From positions 1-21,757 of the forward strand of contig JAEYTQ010000458.1 in assembly GCA_023433965.1 (NCBI GenBank): a stretch of DNA of 21,757 nucleotides, given 5' to 3'. The translations under genes were made by a program, and so were the position numbers. The notes beneath the pieces are model-generated. The model saw nothing but the letters and a program-made list of their open reading frames with translations, was not told the origin of the DNA and ran no database searches. Below are positions 14,719 through 21,518 of the stretch, one piece after another; position 1 is the stretch's first letter, and the number at the start of each line of letters is the position of its first letter. Origin of the DNA: Pseudomonadota bacterium (GTDB taxonomy: Bacteria; Pseudomonadota; Alphaproteobacteria; Rhizobiales; Xanthobacteraceae).

Positions 14719-15423
14719 ATGACCGCGCCGACCGACGATCAATCGCCGAAACTGCCGCGCGGCTGGCTGCGCGCGACCATCGTATCGATGATCGCGCTTG
14801 CCTTCGTCGGCGCGGCGGCGGGCTTCATTGCGTTCCTGGCGCAATTGCGCGGGGCCGAGAAGGTGCCGGATCGCAAGGCGGACGGCATCGTGGTCCTGAC
14901 CGGTGGCTCCTCGCGGGTGTCGGACGCGATGGAGCTGCTCGCAGCCGGCTATGGCAGGCGGCTCCTGATCTCCGGCGTGCATCCGCCCTCGACGGCGAGC
15001 GACATCTCCCGCACCTTGCCGGAAAACCAGTCCTTCATGACCTGCTGCGTCGACCTCGACCGCACCGCGCTCACGACCCGCGGCAATGCCGCAGAGGCGC
15101 GGCGCTGGGCCGATGGGCGCCGGTTCGAATCGCTGATCGTGGTCACCTCCAACTATCACATGCCGCGCGCGCTGGTGGAATTCTCGCATGCGATGCCGCA
15201 GACGACGCTGATCCCGTTTGCGGTGGTCGGCGACAAATGGCGCGAGGAGCCGTGGTGGACCTCGGGCTCGACCTTGCGGTTGCTCCTGTCGGAGTACGTC
15301 AAGTACGTCGCGGCAGAGCTCAGGGTCCGGCTGGAGGATTTCGGGATTGACCTTTGGCCCGAGATGTCGGAGCAGCCTGCAGGCCAGAAGCCGAAGCGGC
15401 CCGCCACCGCGCAGGCCAATTGA
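14719..15423 (+). CDS. YdcF / DUF218 family membrane-anchored protein
   Basis: A 234-residue protein with one N-terminal helix at about 21-43 (IVSMIALAFVGAAAGFIAFL) and a DUF218 domain behind it. Family motifs are DGIVVLTGGSSRVSDAMEL near residue 55, ALTTRGNAAEARRW, and IVVTSNYHMPRALVEF. Related proteins include E. coli SanA and YdcF, linked to envelope permeability; their chemistry is not settled. It stands between ftsX and plsC, which fits an envelope role. The start is an ATG after a GGAAGGGA tract lying 14 or more bases upstream, so the ribosome-binding site is not ideal. Confidence 0.85.
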   Translation: MTAPTDDQSPKLPRGWLRATIVSMIALAFVGAAAGFIAFLAQLRGAEKVPDRKADGIVVLTGGSSRVSDAMELLAAGYGRRLLISGVHPPSTASDISRTLPENQSFMTCCVDLDRTALTTRGNAAEARRWADGRRFESLIVVTSNYHMPRALVEFSHAMPQTTLIPFAVVGDKWREEPWWTSGSTLRLLLSEYVKYVAAELRVRLEDFGIDLWPEMSEQPAGQKPKRPATAQAN

Positions 15424-15445
15424 CGGGCAATTGATCGGACCATCG

Positions 15446-16219
15446 ATGTTCTTGATTTTCCTGCGCTCGCTCGTGTTCAACGTGCTGTTCTACGCGGTGC
15501 TGGTGTGCTTGGCGATCGTGGCGCTGCCGACCTTCGCACTGCCGCCGCGCGCGATGCTGACGGTCGCCGAATGGTGGGCGAAGGCAACGCTGTTCCTGAT
15601 GCGCGTGGTCTGCAACATCAAGGTGGAATTCCGGGGCGTCGAGAACATTCCGAAAGGCCCGCTGCTGATCGTGGCCAAGCATCAGTCGTTCTGGGAGACG
15701 TTCGTGCTGCCGGGATTCTTCCACCGACCGATCTTCATCCTGAAGCGCCAGCTGATGCAGATTCCGGTGTTCGGTCAGTTCCTGGTCAAGACCGGAATGA
15801 TCGCGATCGACCGCAATGCCGGCGTGAAGGCGCTGCTCGACATGACGCGGCGGGCGCGCGAGGCCGTGCGCAGCGGAAAGCAACTCGTCATCTTTCCGGA
15901 AGGCACGCGCCGCGCGCCGGGCGCGCCGCCCGATTACAAGACCGGCTTTGCCCAGATCTATTCGTCCTGCGGCGTACCGTGCCTGCCGGTCGCGCTCAAT
16001 TCCGGTCTGTTCTGGCCCCGCCGCACCTTCATGCGCTATCCGGGCACGCTGTTGGTGGAATTCCTCGCGCCCCTGCCGCCGGGCCTGCCGAAGGACGAGT
16101 TTCTCGCGCGCGTGCAAGCCGACATCGAGGAGGCGACCGGCCGTCTCGTCGAAGCGGGCCGGAAAGAGCAGGAGCAGTTGATCGGCTCCGCGCCGAGCTA
16201 CGCGCCGATTGGCGGCTGA
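15446..16219 (+). CDS. plsC: 1-acyl-sn-glycerol-3-phosphate acyltransferase (PlsC-type)
   Basis: Transfers an acyl chain to lysophosphatidic acid, giving phosphatidic acid for membrane lipids; inner membrane, cytoplasmic face. It has 257 residues. An N-terminal helix is at about 3-27. The catalytic motif is KHQSFWETF, in which His79 is followed five residues later by Glu84, an H(X)4E form of the usual H(X)4D. The phosphate-binding motif FPEGTRRAPG is at about 150-159, and a Pro-rich block near 180-190 is also typical. The start MFLIFLRSLVF has GGACC about seven bases upstream. The gap to the YdcF-like gene is 22 bases, so the block ftsEX-ydcF-plsC may be one transcript. It converges on the sulfatase-family gene, whose stop is 53 bases away. 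Confidence 0.9.
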   Translation: MFLIFLRSLVFNVLFYAVLVCLAIVALPTFALPPRAMLTVAEWWAKATLFLMRVVCNIKVEFRGVENIPKGPLLIVAKHQSFWETFVLPGFFHRPIFILKRQLMQIPVFGQFLVKTGMIAIDRNAGVKALLDMTRRAREAVRSGKQLVIFPEGTRRAPGAPPDYKTGFAQIYSSCGVPCLPVALNSGLFWPRRTFMRYPGTLLVEFLAPLPPGLPKDEFLARVQADIEEATGRLVEAGRKEQEQLIGSAPSYAPIGG

Positions 16220-16272: not shown

Positions 16273-19146
16273 CTATTCGGTCGTGATGATCCTGACGACG
16301 TCCGTCTGCGGGTGCCGGCAGTTCTGGGCGGCAAAATCCGCACTGATCGGAATGTTCGTCTCGTCCTTGCTGGCCTCCGTCGTCGCGGCCTTTGCGACGG
16401 CCGGCATGTCGTTGATGCCCAGCAGCACGGCGGTGCAGACGGCGTTCGGCACGGAATACAGGTCGATGACCCACCGTCTGCCTTCCTTCTGAATTCCGAC
16501 CTCGCCCCACGGCAACGACAGCCGGTTCTTCTCCACCAGAACGTCCGGGACGGCGACGCCTGCCTCGCGCAACGTCCGCAATTCGGTTCGTCCGTTGGTC
16601 CTGATGCCTGACTGCTTCAGCGCGCCGACGAGCTGTGCGGCAGCCGCGACCACTTCGCTGGGAGACACCTGCCGCGCAGCCGGCTTGTTCGCTCCGGCAC
16701 GGTCGGAGACGATGATGCGAACGAACCCCTGACGAGCATCCGAACAGGACTGCTTGATTTCTTCCGGCGGTGCCGGAGCAGCCATTTCGTCCTTGGAATC
16801 GGAGGTGGTCGCGATCCGGGCGACGCCCGGGAGCCGATTGACACCGAGCAGAAGCGTCGTACAGGCGTCCTCGGAAACGGAATGGAAGTCGATGACCCAT
16901 TCCAATCTGTCCTGCGTGACGGCAAACTCGCCCCAAGGGCCGGCCAATTCGCCATCGTCGGTCAATATCTCGGGAACGGCGATGCCGCTCTCGCGCAATT
17001 CAGCCAGCGTCATGCGCTGCTGCCGCGTGACTTCGGGAGCCTTCAAGCCGCCGATCATGGTGGAGATCTCGGCAACCACGCGATCGGCTGACGTCTTGTC
17101 GACCGGGATTTCGGCGAGCTGCCCGAATGCGTCGACCACGAACACTCTGAGCTCGCGTTTTCGAACCGAGCCGAGACATTCCTCGGCGAGGAGCAGCGTG
17201 AATGTATTGGCTTCGTCGTTCACTTCGAGATCGGTCGTCCGCGCCGCGCCGCAGAAGCGGTCGTCCAGGGCAACCAGAACGTTGCGCGTCTCGCCGTCCT
17301 GTTGTCCTCCGGAGAGGCGCACGTCGATGCGCTCGGAGTCCGGGACCGCCGTACGCCGCACGCCGTTCGGTCCGAGGATCTGGGCGGTGGCGTCGGGCAT
17401 CAGGGTCGACTTGAACGCGCTGACGGGACGGCCGATGTAGTCCCGGAACTCCCCGAAGCCGTAGAGGTCCGCGCTCGACGTTCCTGTCCCGAACCAGTGG
17501 ATTCGCCGCTTCAGCGTCGGATCGGCGCGATGCGCGGTGGCCGTGACGGTCGCGGCCGGAGCCGCCGTCCGGATCGCGTTGAGGAGCGACGTGCCCTGAA
17601 GGTCGGCCGGCCGGGTGAGGCCAAGCTGGTCGAGGATGGTCGGATAGACATCGATCGTCTTGGCTTCTCCGAGCGCGACGCGCGCATCGCTCTGTCCCGG
17701 CAATTTCACCAGAAGCGGGACCGCCGAGATGTCGGGCCTGTGCGAGACGTTGGGACGGCGCGGCCACTCGCCCGGCCAGAGCGAAACGCCGTGATCCGCC
17801 ACCACCCAGATCATCGAGTTGTCGTACGCGCCGGTCGACTTCAGGCGGGCAATGGCCTCGCCGAGCAGCTTATCCGCATGCATGGATTGCAGCAGGTGCG
17901 CCTGGTAGTCGTGCATGACCCTCGCGTCGTCGGAGCCGAGCCGCGTGATCTTGCGATCGAGCGAGATGTAGTCGCCCCATCGCGACAGCGGATAGGGCTT
18001 GCCCGACGGATAGTGGTTCCAGGCGTTGTGGGGGTAGATGTTGTGATAGACGGCGAGGAACGGTTGTTGCGCGCCGCCCAACGCGGCCATGAAACGCTGG
18101 TGATGAGCGATGCCGTGCGGCGAAGTGGCGACGTCTTCGCCGAACCGATTGTGCTGCCGGTCGATGGGTGGGAGCTCGGCGCCGAACCGTGGCAGGGCGG
18201 CGATATGGCCGTAGATGATCGCGATATCGCGCGCGATCCCGCGCGTCCGCTCCGTGAACGAGGAGTCGGGGGCGTCTCCGCTTTGGGCGAAGGGGTTGAG
18301 ATTGGTGATGATCTGGAGATCCAGCACGTTGTAGCTGGCGCCCAAAGTGTAGAAGATGTTCTGCGGGTAGATCGCATACGTCGCCGGCACGCCTTTGCGC
18401 AGCCTTCCGGCCATGATCGCAGGGACCGCGGCCTCGGTTTCTCCCGACACCGAGCGCGCATCGGCAAACCACGTGCTGTTCTGCGAGAGTCGATGGAAGT
18501 TCGGAAATTTCTCCTTGTCGATCATTCCCTCGCCATCGAGGATCGTGGTGAGCGGAAGTTCGTCAAAGACGATGAACACGATGTTGGGCCGCCCCGCCAT
18601 CTCGATCGTCGGTGGCGGCGGCACTTTCGACAGCCGGATCACGCCGAGTTCGTAGCCGCGGAAGAGCATCAAGGCCGGAAAGGCGATCGTCAGCATCCCG
18701 AGGAGTCGAACCGCGCCGCGCAAGCCGGGCTTCGACAGAAGAAGCCAGGCCAAGCCGAGCGCGAGCGCCGGGAGCGCTATGCCCACGATACCGCTGGAGA
18801 TCGGAATATAGGGCGCCTGCCGTGCCAATTGCCGGAACACCCCGGTGACGGCGAGCCAGATGTAGCTCGAGAAGACGATGAACGCCAAAGCGAGACCCAG
18901 GCCCCGGTGCAGCCGGAAGCCAAGCCAGACCACCAGATAGGTCAGGACCGGCGGCACCAGATAGATGAGCAGGATCCATACTGCGAACTCCGGCCCGCTC
19001 GTTCGCCAAGCCACGAAGAAGTTCAGGTTCGTGCCGGTGACGGAGTAGAACGGTTGCGCGATCGCCATCGCCGCGAGTGCCAGATGCAGCAGGAAGGACG
19101 TCGGCTGGACCGGCGCGCCGCGGTCCCGCGCGGGAAGCGCGATCAT
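16273..19146 (-). CDS. Sulfatase/alkaline-phosphatase superfamily membrane enzyme with two C-terminal repeat modules
   Basis: 957 residues, far longer than the usual ~500-650. Five hydrophobic helices lie at about 18-40, 51-76, 83-104, 115-138 and 144-166. The extracytoplasmic catalytic domain (about 185-530) has IVFIVFDELP (Asp195, Glu196 as metal ligands), SVSGETEAAVPAIMAGR (likely nucleophile Thr237), YHNIYPHNAWNHY (His373, His378) and VVADHGVSLWPG (Asp451, His452). This fits the LtaS / phosphoethanolamine-transferase branch, but the substrate is unknown. A linker domain (about 570-685) precedes two tandem modules at 689-816 and 831-957, described separately. The start at MIALPARD has GGAGG seven bases upstream and overlaps the stop of a broken methyltransferase frame by ATGA; a frame start 32 codons earlier has less support. 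The gene looks accessory. Confidence 0.83.
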   Translation of the reverse strand: MIALPARDRGAPVQPTSFLLHLALAAMAIAQPFYSVTGTNLNFFVAWRTSGPEFAVWILLIYLVPPVLTYLVVWLGFRLHRGLGLALAFIVFSSYIWLAVTGVFRQLARQAPYIPISSGIVGIALPALALGLAWLLLSKPGLRGAVRLLGMLTIAFPALMLFRGYELGVIRLSKVPPPPTIEMAGRPNIVFIVFDELPLTTILDGEGMIDKEKFPNFHRLSQNSTWFADARSVSGETEAAVPAIMAGRLRKGVPATYAIYPQNIFYTLGASYNVLDLQIITNLNPFAQSGDAPDSSFTERTRGIARDIAIIYGHIAALPRFGAELPPIDRQHNRFGEDVATSPHGIAHHQRFMAALGGAQQPFLAVYHNIYPHNAWNHYPSGKPYPLSRWGDYISLDRKITRLGSDDARVMHDYQAHLLQSMHADKLLGEAIARLKSTGAYDNSMIWVVADHGVSLWPGEWPRRPNVSHRPDISAVPLLVKLPGQSDARVALGEAKTIDVYPTILDQLGLTRPADLQGTSLLNAIRTAAPAATVTATAHRADPTLKRRIHWFGTGTSSADLYGFGEFRDYIGRPVSAFKSTLMPDATAQILGPNGVRRTAVPDSERIDVRLSGGQQDGETRNVLVALDDRFCGAARTTDLEVNDEANTFTLLLAEECLGSVRKRELRVFVVDAFGQLAEIPVDKTSADRVVAEISTMIGGLKAPEVTRQQRMTLAELRESGIAVPEILTDDGELAGPWGEFAVTQDRLEWVIDFHSVSEDACTTLLLGVNRLPGVARIATTSDSKDEMAAPAPPEEIKQSCSDARQGFVRIIVSDRAGANKPAARQVSPSEVVAAAAQLVGALKQSGIRTNGRTELRTLREAGVAVPDVLVEKNRLSLPWGEVGIQKEGRRWVIDLYSVPNAVCTAVLLGINDMPAVAKAATTEASKDETNIPISADFAAQNCRHPQTDVVRIITTE
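16276..16656 (-). repeat. Second C-terminal module of the sulfatase protein (pilin-head-like)
   Basis: Residues 831-957 of the sulfatase protein. Landmarks are LREAGVAVPDVL, LPWGEVGI, RRWVIDLYSVPNAVCTAVLL, Cys904 and Cys943. Aligned with no gap to the preceding module at an offset of 142 residues (426 bases), about 50 of 127 positions are identical by eye count. At the DNA level GTCGATGACCCA recurs at 16462 and 16888, exactly 426 bases apart. The L..AG.VP / PWGG-like / VP..C pattern resembles the globular part of type IVb PilS-like pilins; that resemblance is inference from memory. Confidence 0.85.
16699..17082 (-). repeat. First C-terminal module of the sulfatase protein (pilin-head-like)
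   Basis: Residues 689-816. Landmarks are LRESGIAVPEIL, GPWGEFAV, LEWVIDFHSVSEDACTTLLL, Cys762 and Cys801. The Cys pair spacing of 39 residues is the same as in the second module, which suggests one disulfide per module in the periplasm. Between the two modules is a short Ala/Pro/Ser linker. Confidence 0.85.
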
Positions 19147-19379
19147 GCGGCGGCCTCCGCGCCGAACTCGAATATCCGCTCCAGGAAGTCCCGCATTGGA
19201 ATGTTCGGGGAGATGACCATGTGATGTATGAGCGCCAGGCACAGGATCAGATCGGGTCCGGCGCGGCGTTCGAACGACTTGCTTTCGCGGCCGCGCCAGC
19301 CCTGGTCAGGCGAGGTGTTGCTCAAGCGCATGACGAGGGGCGTGATGTTGCCCGGTTGCGGCGGCTTGGTGCGGCGATA
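19143..19379 (-). pseudogene. Remnant of a class I SAM-dependent methyltransferase gene
   Basis: In one minus-strand frame about 78 residues read like the middle of a methyltransferase: GNITPLVMRLSNTSPDQGWR, then GPDLILCLALIHHMVISPNI. This matches the family pattern (PLV.DL.NPSP..GW, then D.VLALALIHHL.I.NN.P) found in long rhizobial methyltransferases, as I recall them. The SAM-binding N-terminal part is absent. The C-terminal strands expected after the PMRDFLERIFEF helix are missing, since the frame stops at 19143. No start with a ribosome-binding site exists in this frame. The TGA stop overlaps the sulfatase ATG as ATGA, so operon-style coupling is retained. Family identity is moderately secure; that it is broken is likely. 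Confidence 0.65.
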
Positions 19380-20333: not shown

Positions 20334-21518
20334 ATGTCCAATATGACCGTTGCCGCAGGCCGCCGCTCCCGTTGGGGCCTTTTCATCGCCCCCATTTTCG
20401 TTCTGGTCCTCGCCGTCGCGTGGAGCTGTTTCTGGTTCTATGCAGCCTCGCAAGCCGAAGTGGCCGCAGACGCCTGGCGGGCGCAGGAGGCCAAGGCCGG
20501 CCGCATCTATGATTGCGCCAAGCGCTCGATCGCGGGCTTCCCGTTCCGCTTCGAGGTCCAATGCTCCGGCGCCAGCGTCGCCCTGGTCTCGCAGAACGCG
20601 AGCAAGACGCCGTTCACGGCGAAGCTCGACAACATCCTGGTCGTCGCCCAGGTCTACGATCCCAAGCGCGTCATCGCCGAATTCTCCGCGCCGGCGACGC
20701 TGATCGACGGCATCACGCAAAACACCTTCATGGTCAATTGGAGCATGGGCCGCGCCAGCGTCGCCGGCCTGCCGGCCGTCCCGGACCGTGCCTCGATCGT
20801 GTTCGACGACCCCATCCTCAACCGTCTCGACGGCAGCGTGCAGGTGCCGCTCGCGCGGGCCAAGCAGATCGAGTTGCACGGGCGCCTCGCGGAGGGATCT
20901 TCGCCGGATCGTCCCGTGATCGAGACCGTGCTCCATGTCGCGCAGGGCAGCATCCAGGGCGTGCATCCGCTGCTTGCCGAGCCGTTCGAGGCCGACACAC
21001 GGGCGAAGATCACCGGCCTCACCGACCTCACGCCAAAGCCCTGGCCGCAGCGCTTCCGCGAGATCCAGGCCGCCGGCGGTCATATCGAGATCGTGCAGTC
21101 GCGGATCCAGCAGGGCGAGACGATCGCGGTCGCCGCCGGCACGCTCGGCCTGTCGCCCAATGGCCGGCTCGACGGCGAATTGCAGATGACGGTGACGGGC
21201 CTCGAGCGCGTGATCCCGGCGCTCGGCATCGAGAAGATGCTCGAGGAAGGCGTGCCGCAGGCCACGCTGGACCGCCTTGCGCCGGGCGTGAAGTCGCAGG
21301 ACCTCAACAATTTGTTCGGGGCGCTCGACCGCGCCGTGCCCGGGCTCGGCAAGGTCATCAAGCAGAACGCCAATGCGGGCGTCGCGGCCGGCATCAATTC
21401 GATCGGCAGCGAGACGACGCTGGAAGGCAGGAAGGCGCGAAGCTTCCCGCTGAAATTCGTCGACGGTGCCGTGCTGCTCGGCCCGGTCAAGGTCGGCCAG
21501 ATCCCGCCGCTGTATTGA
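20334..21518 (+). CDS. DUF2125 domain-containing membrane-anchored protein
   Basis: A 394-residue protein with one N-terminal helix at about 15-37 (GLFIAPIFVLVLAVAWSCFW) and a long extracytoplasmic part. The motif YDCAKRSIAGFPFRFEVQCS just after the helix is the hallmark of DUF2125, an alphaproteobacterial family without known function; its two cysteines may form a disulfide. The rest is beta-rich by pattern, with repeated short strands, as in AsmA-like or lipid-contact proteins, but that comparison is weak. AAGGG lies seven bases before the ATG. Its usual neighbours in Bradyrhizobium, chaC on one side and the tyrosine-pathway dehydrogenase on the other, are both here. Confidence 0.88.
   Translation: MSNMTVAAGRRSRWGLFIAPIFVLVLAVAWSCFWFYAASQAEVAADAWRAQEAKAGRIYDCAKRSIAGFPFRFEVQCSGASVALVSQNASKTPFTAKLDNILVVAQVYDPKRVIAEFSAPATLIDGITQNTFMVNWSMGRASVAGLPAVPDRASIVFDDPILNRLDGSVQVPLARAKQIELHGRLAEGSSPDRPVIETVLHVAQGSIQGVHPLLAEPFEADTRAKITGLTDLTPKPWPQRFREIQAAGGHIEIVQSRIQQGETIAVAAGTLGLSPNGRLDGELQMTVTGLERVIPALGIEKMLEEGVPQATLDRLAPGVKSQDLNNLFGALDRAVPGLGKVIKQNANAGVAAGINSIGSETTLEGRKARSFPLKFVDGAVLLGPVKVGQIPPLY

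Follow-up and report, generated by a model that had tools for sequence, protein, structure and literature searches.

Why would a membrane enzyme of the sulfatase family end in two copies of a domain that resembles the head of a pilin? The question is raised by one gene in a 21,757-nucleotide stretch of DNA (contig JAEYTQ010000458.1 of assembly GCA_023433965.1, hereafter the window) from a soil bacterium that is Bradyrhizobium-like. Judged from its sequence, the 957-residue product is a membrane-anchored enzyme of the alkaline-phosphatase superfamily followed by two C-terminal pilin-head modules (Table 1). We hypothesize, with a probability of about 0.45, that it is an inner-membrane phospho-head-group transferase whose modules serve as periplasmic docking domains for the acceptor. 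The 957 codons are counted from an ATG at position 19146, which matches the start of the relatives in the alignment; an in-frame GTG upstream, at 19242, would add 32 residues. The span noted in the first-pass annotation (16276-17082) corresponds to residues 689-957.

A tandem C-terminal repeat with a pilin-like predicted fold

The two modules form the ungapped repeat that had been described from the sequence: two copies of about 127 residues at an offset of 142 residues, where the best 127-residue stretch, which starts at residue 686, has 51 identical positions (the stretch starting at residue 688 has 50, as against the approximately 50 claimed). The Cys pairs 762/801 and 904/943 and the motifs PWGE and WVID(F/L)xSV were likewise found where they had been reported. 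Among the other offsets between 20 and 399, the best gave 22 identities per 127-residue stretch, and the ungapped BLOSUM62 score at offset 142 was 254, versus -105 +/- 22.6 in 10,000 shuffles (maximum -10, z 15.9). BLASTP aligned residues 681-820 with residues 823-957 free of gaps (51/132 identical, E 4e-34), and both modules align in all 7 non-window rows of the first homolog alignment (8 rows). The complete set of Cys residues in the protein is 632, 657, 762, 801, 904 and 943; the two of each module are invariant in all enzyme-family modules (31/31) and in a wider set (13/13) and are possible counterparts of the disulfide that type IVb pilins have in the C-terminal part of the head. The 31 modules also share an invariant Trp-Gly and an invariant Asp-Glu pair and, across the carrier types described below, seven positions are invariant (P40, G54, D68, C77, P106, C116 and R125, in module 2 numbering).

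The predicted model of the module has the alpha/beta fold of a pilin head, and the top 13 structural entries are all type IV pilins or pilus-system proteins. On this predicted model the pilin-like head is supported, and neither a non-pilin fold nor another sulfatase accessory domain, the two outcomes set beforehand as refuting it, appeared. The predicted local distance difference test score (pLDDT) is below 50 at residues 816-824 (model positions 130-138), around the inter-module linker. That the likeness is a common alpha/beta arrangement reached without shared descent seems to us very improbable.

In Pfam scans of the 31 single modules, PilS (PF08805), which the first-pass annotation had singled out for comparison, was in fact the most-matched family (16 modules with E no higher than 1, the lowest being 4.3e-4); three modules matched Bundlin, and seven further families were matched by one or two modules each. 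The window protein itself fared less well: its PilS match (C-terminal part, E 7.5e-4) lies in module 1 and stays below the curated cut-off of 22 bits (15.1 bits for the whole protein, 20.0 for the C-terminal part), and module 2 scanned alone matched no Pfam family. PilS is among the matches with E no higher than 0.1 in seven of nine full-length relatives, two of which pass the cut-off (P0011, 26.7 bits; P0019, 22.6 bits). Taken on its own, the PilS sequence evidence is suggestive, not conclusive. The module profile matched no PDB sequence, even with E values of up to 10 allowed, and the link to pilins is therefore based on Pfam and on structure.

In the window protein, the head is not immediately preceded by a prepilin leader and a long hydrophobic alpha1-N helix. 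At its threshold, the hydropathy scan marked no hydrophobic segment within residues 163-892, and the head begins at residue 686, behind the enzyme.

Catalytic part and candidate chemistry

The first-pass annotation had likened the enzyme to lipoteichoic-acid (LTA) synthases and phosphoethanolamine transferases, a reading that survives in part. The candidate active-site residues (placed by eye; Table 1) are conserved and occur together with N-terminal hydrophobic segments, a combination that would suit a transferase. We presume that D195-E196 is a metal-ligand position, that T237 is the nucleophile and that D451-H452 are metal ligands. Four of the hydrophobic segments lie inside residues 55-162 in the hydropathy scan, and an extra helix (residues 17-36) appears in a low-confidence model. 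The first Cys of the protein is residue 632, and [CS]xPxR, the motif for formylglycine conversion, is missing throughout. CxPxR is absent from the 24 module-bearing proteins of the family (0/24), and SxPxR, present in 15 of them (13 full-length or C-terminal cases near residues 516-541 or beyond 820, and the shorter P0024 at residue 365), always lies away from the Thr site; a formylglycine-type sulfatase is therefore unlikely on this sequence evidence. As the formylglycine motif is missing and the Thr is kept, the closer chemical model would be LtaS and EptA, presumably Thr-using transferases.

Against this reading, phosphonate monoester hydrolases and sulfatases come ahead of the LTA enzymes in the database rankings. 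In a PDB sequence search with the catalytic part, the best matches were a phosphonate monoester hydrolase (E 9.1e-13) and other sulfatase-type entries, with an LTA primase lower (E 2.8e-5), and in NCBIfam PehA, arylsulfatase and choline-sulfatase ranked over LtaS, all far under cut-off. The equivalog cut-offs of LtaS (18.0 vs 970 bits) and YejM (17.4 vs 825 bits) were not reached.

Table 1. The window gene, its parts and related carriers at other loci (window positions unless a locus is named; aa, amino acids)
Feature	Position	Strand	Basis or remark
Whole gene, 957 aa	16273..19146	-	Open reading frame list; Pfam Sulfatase PF00884 E 1.1e-12; ATG aligned with relatives
About five hydrophobic helices, residues 17-170	18637..19098	-	Hydropathy scan and low-confidence model
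Catalytic domain, residues 186-570, limits approximate	17437..18591	-	Pfam match 356-509; PDB sequence matches mostly 360-535
D195-E196, putative metal-ligand position	18559..18564	-	D in 88/90, E in 86/90 aligned proteins
T237, putative nucleophile, placed by eye	18436..18438	-	T in 87/90, S in 2, gap in 1
H373, invariant His	18028..18030	-	90/90 aligned proteins
D451-H452, putative metal ligands	17791..17796	-	Each 90/90 aligned proteins
Beta-rich domain, residues 571-685, Cys pair 632/657, immunoglobulin/fibronectin type III-like at best	17092..17436	-	
Pilin-head module 1, residues 686-818, Cys 762/801	16693..17091	-	Repeat comparison, model; sub-cut-off Pfam PilS match 751-804
Inter-module linker, residues 819-827	16666..16692	-	Predicted model
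Pilin-head module 2, residues 828-957, Cys 904/943	16276..16665	-	
Polytopic proteins of about 950 aa	L023:9091-11946; L025:8850-11675; L026:8092-10956; L027:8595-11456		Bodies 49-71% identical
Single-transmembrane protein of 169 aa, barely more than one module	L029:8715-9224		Divergent from an AT3-SGNH acyltransferase gene

Relatives, other carriers and their gene neighbourhoods

A scan of genome contigs with the single protein returned no relative and an alignment query returned three loci; a profile search based on the initial 8-row alignment yielded a family of 90 proteins, including the window protein itself (P0001), those with a named source being from Bradyrhizobium. By a hidden Markov model built from that alignment, 24 of the 90 carry the module (four with three copies, 17 with two and three with one) and 66 do not, among them the short P0025 (504 aa) and P0026 (474 aa). 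A one-copy version is the 858-aa protein at locus L031; in the one-copy P0021 and P0022 the tail of the array seems to be out of frame after the first module, which may reflect either decay or an error in the sequence. Eleven of the 24 (P0009, P0010, P0012-P0018, P0020 and P0024) have an extra tail after the last module, amphipathic-looking and of the KLAAAWRRLKR kind, which the window protein does not have.

Gene order is kept in the window and at six further loci (L001, L002, L003, L031, L032 and L033), with DUF218 (and plsC where present), the enzyme gene and chaC/DUF2125 in succession; the plsC-like acyltransferase gene (15347-16219 in the window) was not detected in L002, L031, L032 and L033, where the remaining order is kept. 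In four codon comparisons, the nonsynonymous proportion of differences (pN) was below the synonymous one (pS) in every protein part, which in both modules fits purifying selection (window versus L001, pN/pS 0.279/0.523 in module 1 and 0.218/0.418 in module 2). In three of the four pairs the catalytic part changed more slowly than the modules (in window/L001, 0.136 versus 0.279 and 0.218). In L002/L032 module 1 was slower than the catalytic part (0.062 versus 0.077) and the membrane and beta parts were often as fast as the modules, so that rate does not single the modules out.

A tree of 57 modules places those of the sulfatase-like proteins on one side of a branch and those of the other carriers on the opposite side (93/85), and no recent swapping between carrier types was seen; the modules of L029 and L024 have long branches that join each other, and an uncertain placement. 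Window modules 1 and 2 fall in separate starred clades, each with modules of relatives, from which it follows that the duplication predates the split from the closest relatives and that a recent duplication can be rejected. On the tree, no fewer than two changes are required for each copy position (first, second and third), and copies were thus gained, lost or moved over time.

The fusion also occurs in other genomes, as the first-pass annotation had suggested looking for. Within the genus of Bradyrhizobium sp. YR681 (G001, the genome of L001), the module profile was positive in 14 of 242 genomes, and a wider profile, built partly from those matches, in 16 of 265, each with the module in one place or as one tandem pair. 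The sulfatase-like type is present in seven genomes (G001, G002, G003, G116, G127, G210 and G647, the last assigned by 69% identity), a carrier of about 950 residues in five (G033, G125, G149, G225 and, by 84% identity, G633; the four that were scanned have 11-16 hydrophobic segments), a DUF6056 carrier of 621-637 residues in three (G057, G128 and G153) and a 169-residue carrier with one hydrophobic segment in one (G117). The bodies of the different types have no mutual BLASTP match at 1e-3, the single-transmembrane body being only 36 residues long; from sequence, the two polytopic types may still be remotely related. In Pfam at E 0.1 the four proteins of about 950 residues listed in Table 1 match nothing except, weakly, PilS in L027 (0.043).

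Apart from the centre genome, samples of the order (396 genomes) and of the family (247 genomes) gave no match to the wider profile, with few first-look candidates scored per genome (at most 10 and 16, respectively, among the rows listed), so that distant relatives may be missed; a widespread module was not borne out. A PF08805 search of 265 genomes gave no match, nor did it in 14 controls, and for that reason it says nothing on the absence of free PilS pilins. The module profile brought up seven pilin-sized proteins, none an evident pilin: six, from short contigs (0.9-3.3 kb), resemble C-terminal fragments of members of the enzyme family or shifted frames, and the seventh (P0092) has 163 residues and lies on a 76-kb contig. 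The 169-aa protein of L029 is not an evident prepilin either, since its N-terminus has no Gly with a Glu five residues on, presumably the prepilin motif; it is possibly a stand-alone partner of the neighbouring AT3-SGNH acyltransferase.

These carriers bear on the view that the modules are spacers or self-association elements, holding the periplasmic part off the membrane or joining subunits, with no recognition of an acceptor. Tandem copies in varying number, a C-terminal position on differing bodies and a cross-carrier invariance limited to seven positions, which could be purely structural, would all suit such a role; the Trp-Gly and Asp-Glu pair kept throughout the enzyme family and the existence of single-copy carriers argue against it, and we consider it somewhat unlikely.

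The docking role is suggested by the genes around several carriers, of which we scanned 30, picked by their sequence beginnings and hence not an unbiased sample. The matches, sugar genes at several of the loci, lay beside carriers of about 950 residues (L023: NeuB, a GHMP kinase with CBS, GtrA, a methyltransferase, a family 2 glycosyltransferase (GT2), a sugar dehydratase and one familyless protein; L025: NeuB, a cytidylyltransferase and a methyltransferase; L026: GT2 and a GHMP kinase; L027: a cytidylyltransferase), beside the DUF6056 carrier of L024 (two GT2, a DegT aminotransferase, two dehydratase/epimerases and a thiamine pyrophosphate enzyme), beside the single-transmembrane carrier of L029 (NeuB, UDP-GlcNAc 2-epimerase, two nucleotidyltransferases, DUF6418 and the divergent AT3-SGNH acyltransferase) and in L030 (a cytidylyltransferase, a carbamoyltransferase and RmlD). 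We take NeuB to point to nonulosonic acids, GtrA with GT2 to resemble O-antigen modification sets and DUF6056 to be a glycosyltransferase-like body. In the window, the seven neighbours scanned are an ftsE-like ATP-binding cassette (ABC) ATPase, a plsC-like acyltransferase, ChaC, a zinc-ribbon protein, DUF218, DUF2125 and a protein that matches FtsX weakly.

The same neighbours speak to another view, in which the enzyme modifies a pilin or pilus and the fused heads imitate a pilin neighbour, capture subunits or are themselves decorated, as in the case of Neisseria PptA on PilE. Pilins are also decorated by membrane glycosyltransferases, the predicted fold of the module is pilin-like and the first residues of the DUF2125 neighbour (20334-21518) match TadE weakly (E 0.081; 13.5 bits versus a cut-off of 22.9), which probably reflects just a membrane segment. 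According to PMC4010543, PptA, which is related to EptB, is necessary for phosphoethanolamine and phosphocholine on gonococcal proteins. None of the seven window neighbours reached the cut-off of a Pfam pilus family, and the 30 selected neighbours of other carriers gave no such family at 1e-5; we regard pilin modification as unlikely.

Proposed docking role and known systems

For the transferase with docking modules, we infer topology, chemistry, acceptor and docking role as follows. The enzyme would sit in the inner membrane with its catalytic domain on the periplasmic side, where Thr237 would take a phospho-head-group (of phosphoethanolamine or phosphoglycerol type) from a membrane lipid; from the Thr-phosphate intermediate, the group would pass to an acceptor in the envelope, for which a surface glycan or its lipid-linked precursor is the most likely candidate. 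The C-terminal modules would be heads of the type IVb pilin kind that, having neither prepilin leader nor hydrophobic alpha1-N helix, no longer build a pilus and that dock the acceptor, or a partner carrying it, close to the active site. Related modules would have been plugged onto other types of membrane protein, with one to three copies in the enzyme family. The docking proposal draws on the same head occurring on different membrane proteins, several of them in sugar clusters, and on the AT3-SGNH precedent, in which, according to PMC7448272, the fused periplasmic partner is required and its extension constrains the acceptor.

Several observations weigh against this proposal. To the sub-threshold PilS scores, the unmatched module 2, the ranking of the catalytic part and the evolutionary rates of L002/L032 and of the membrane and beta parts given above, we add that the catalytic domain was poorly modelled, that the periplasmic topology was derived from a simple hydropathy scan, that the window gene, as judged by its seven scanned neighbours, lies outside any sugar cluster and that the one neighbour scanned in L028 was a methyltransferase and nothing else.

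A pilus part may have been reused as a plug-in for envelope enzymes. More tentatively, the detached type IVb pilin head could be a swappable, copy-number-variable, acceptor-selecting periplasmic domain of surface-sugar enzymes in general: phosphotransferases, polytopic glycosyltransferase-like proteins and possibly, through the single-transmembrane protein, an acyltransferase in trans. Pilin heads are known from filaments, and here a pilin-like head is found on several types of membrane protein that do not have the filament-forming helix; a PilS match in an annotation need not imply a pilus. Docking, if true, would explain an acceptor-recognition part common to different periplasmic enzymes and would open a way to study variation of the surface that Bradyrhizobium species present to plants, phages and soil. 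Narrow terms in open-licence papers retrieved no report of a pilin head fused to an enzyme, which is no proof of novelty.

Compared with known systems, the modules are like type IVb pilins (Salmonella Typhi 3fhu and PilS 1q5f; CofA 3s0t and 3vor; TcpA 3hrv and 1oqv; PF08805) in their predicted head fold, weak profile match and two Cys late in the domain, and unlike them in being tandem and behind a multi-pass enzyme, with no prepilin leader or long hydrophobic helix. The enzyme shares N-terminal membrane helices, an alkaline-phosphatase-superfamily domain and a Thr at the presumed nucleophile position with EptA, LtaS and PptA, but differs in its C-terminal beta domain and pilin-head modules and in scoring far under the LtaS and YejM cut-offs. 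Phosphonate monoester hydrolases and choline sulfatases are the top sequence matches of the catalytic part, from which it departs by the missing Cys and [CS]xPxR, the membrane helices and the C-terminal modules. PptA is structurally related to EptB and implicated in phosphocholine on PilE, according to PMC4010543. Like the AT3-SGNH O-antigen acetyltransferases OafA and OafB, the carriers would join a membrane surface-sugar enzyme to a fused periplasmic domain; that partner is itself catalytic (PMC7448272), whereas the pilin-like head has no recognised active site. Modular pilins are also known, PilB and PilC of Streptococcus sanguinis among them (PMC10628169), in which, as here, a pilin head is coupled to a second functional module; there an adhesin is grafted onto a true pilin, whereas here an enzyme bears the detached head.
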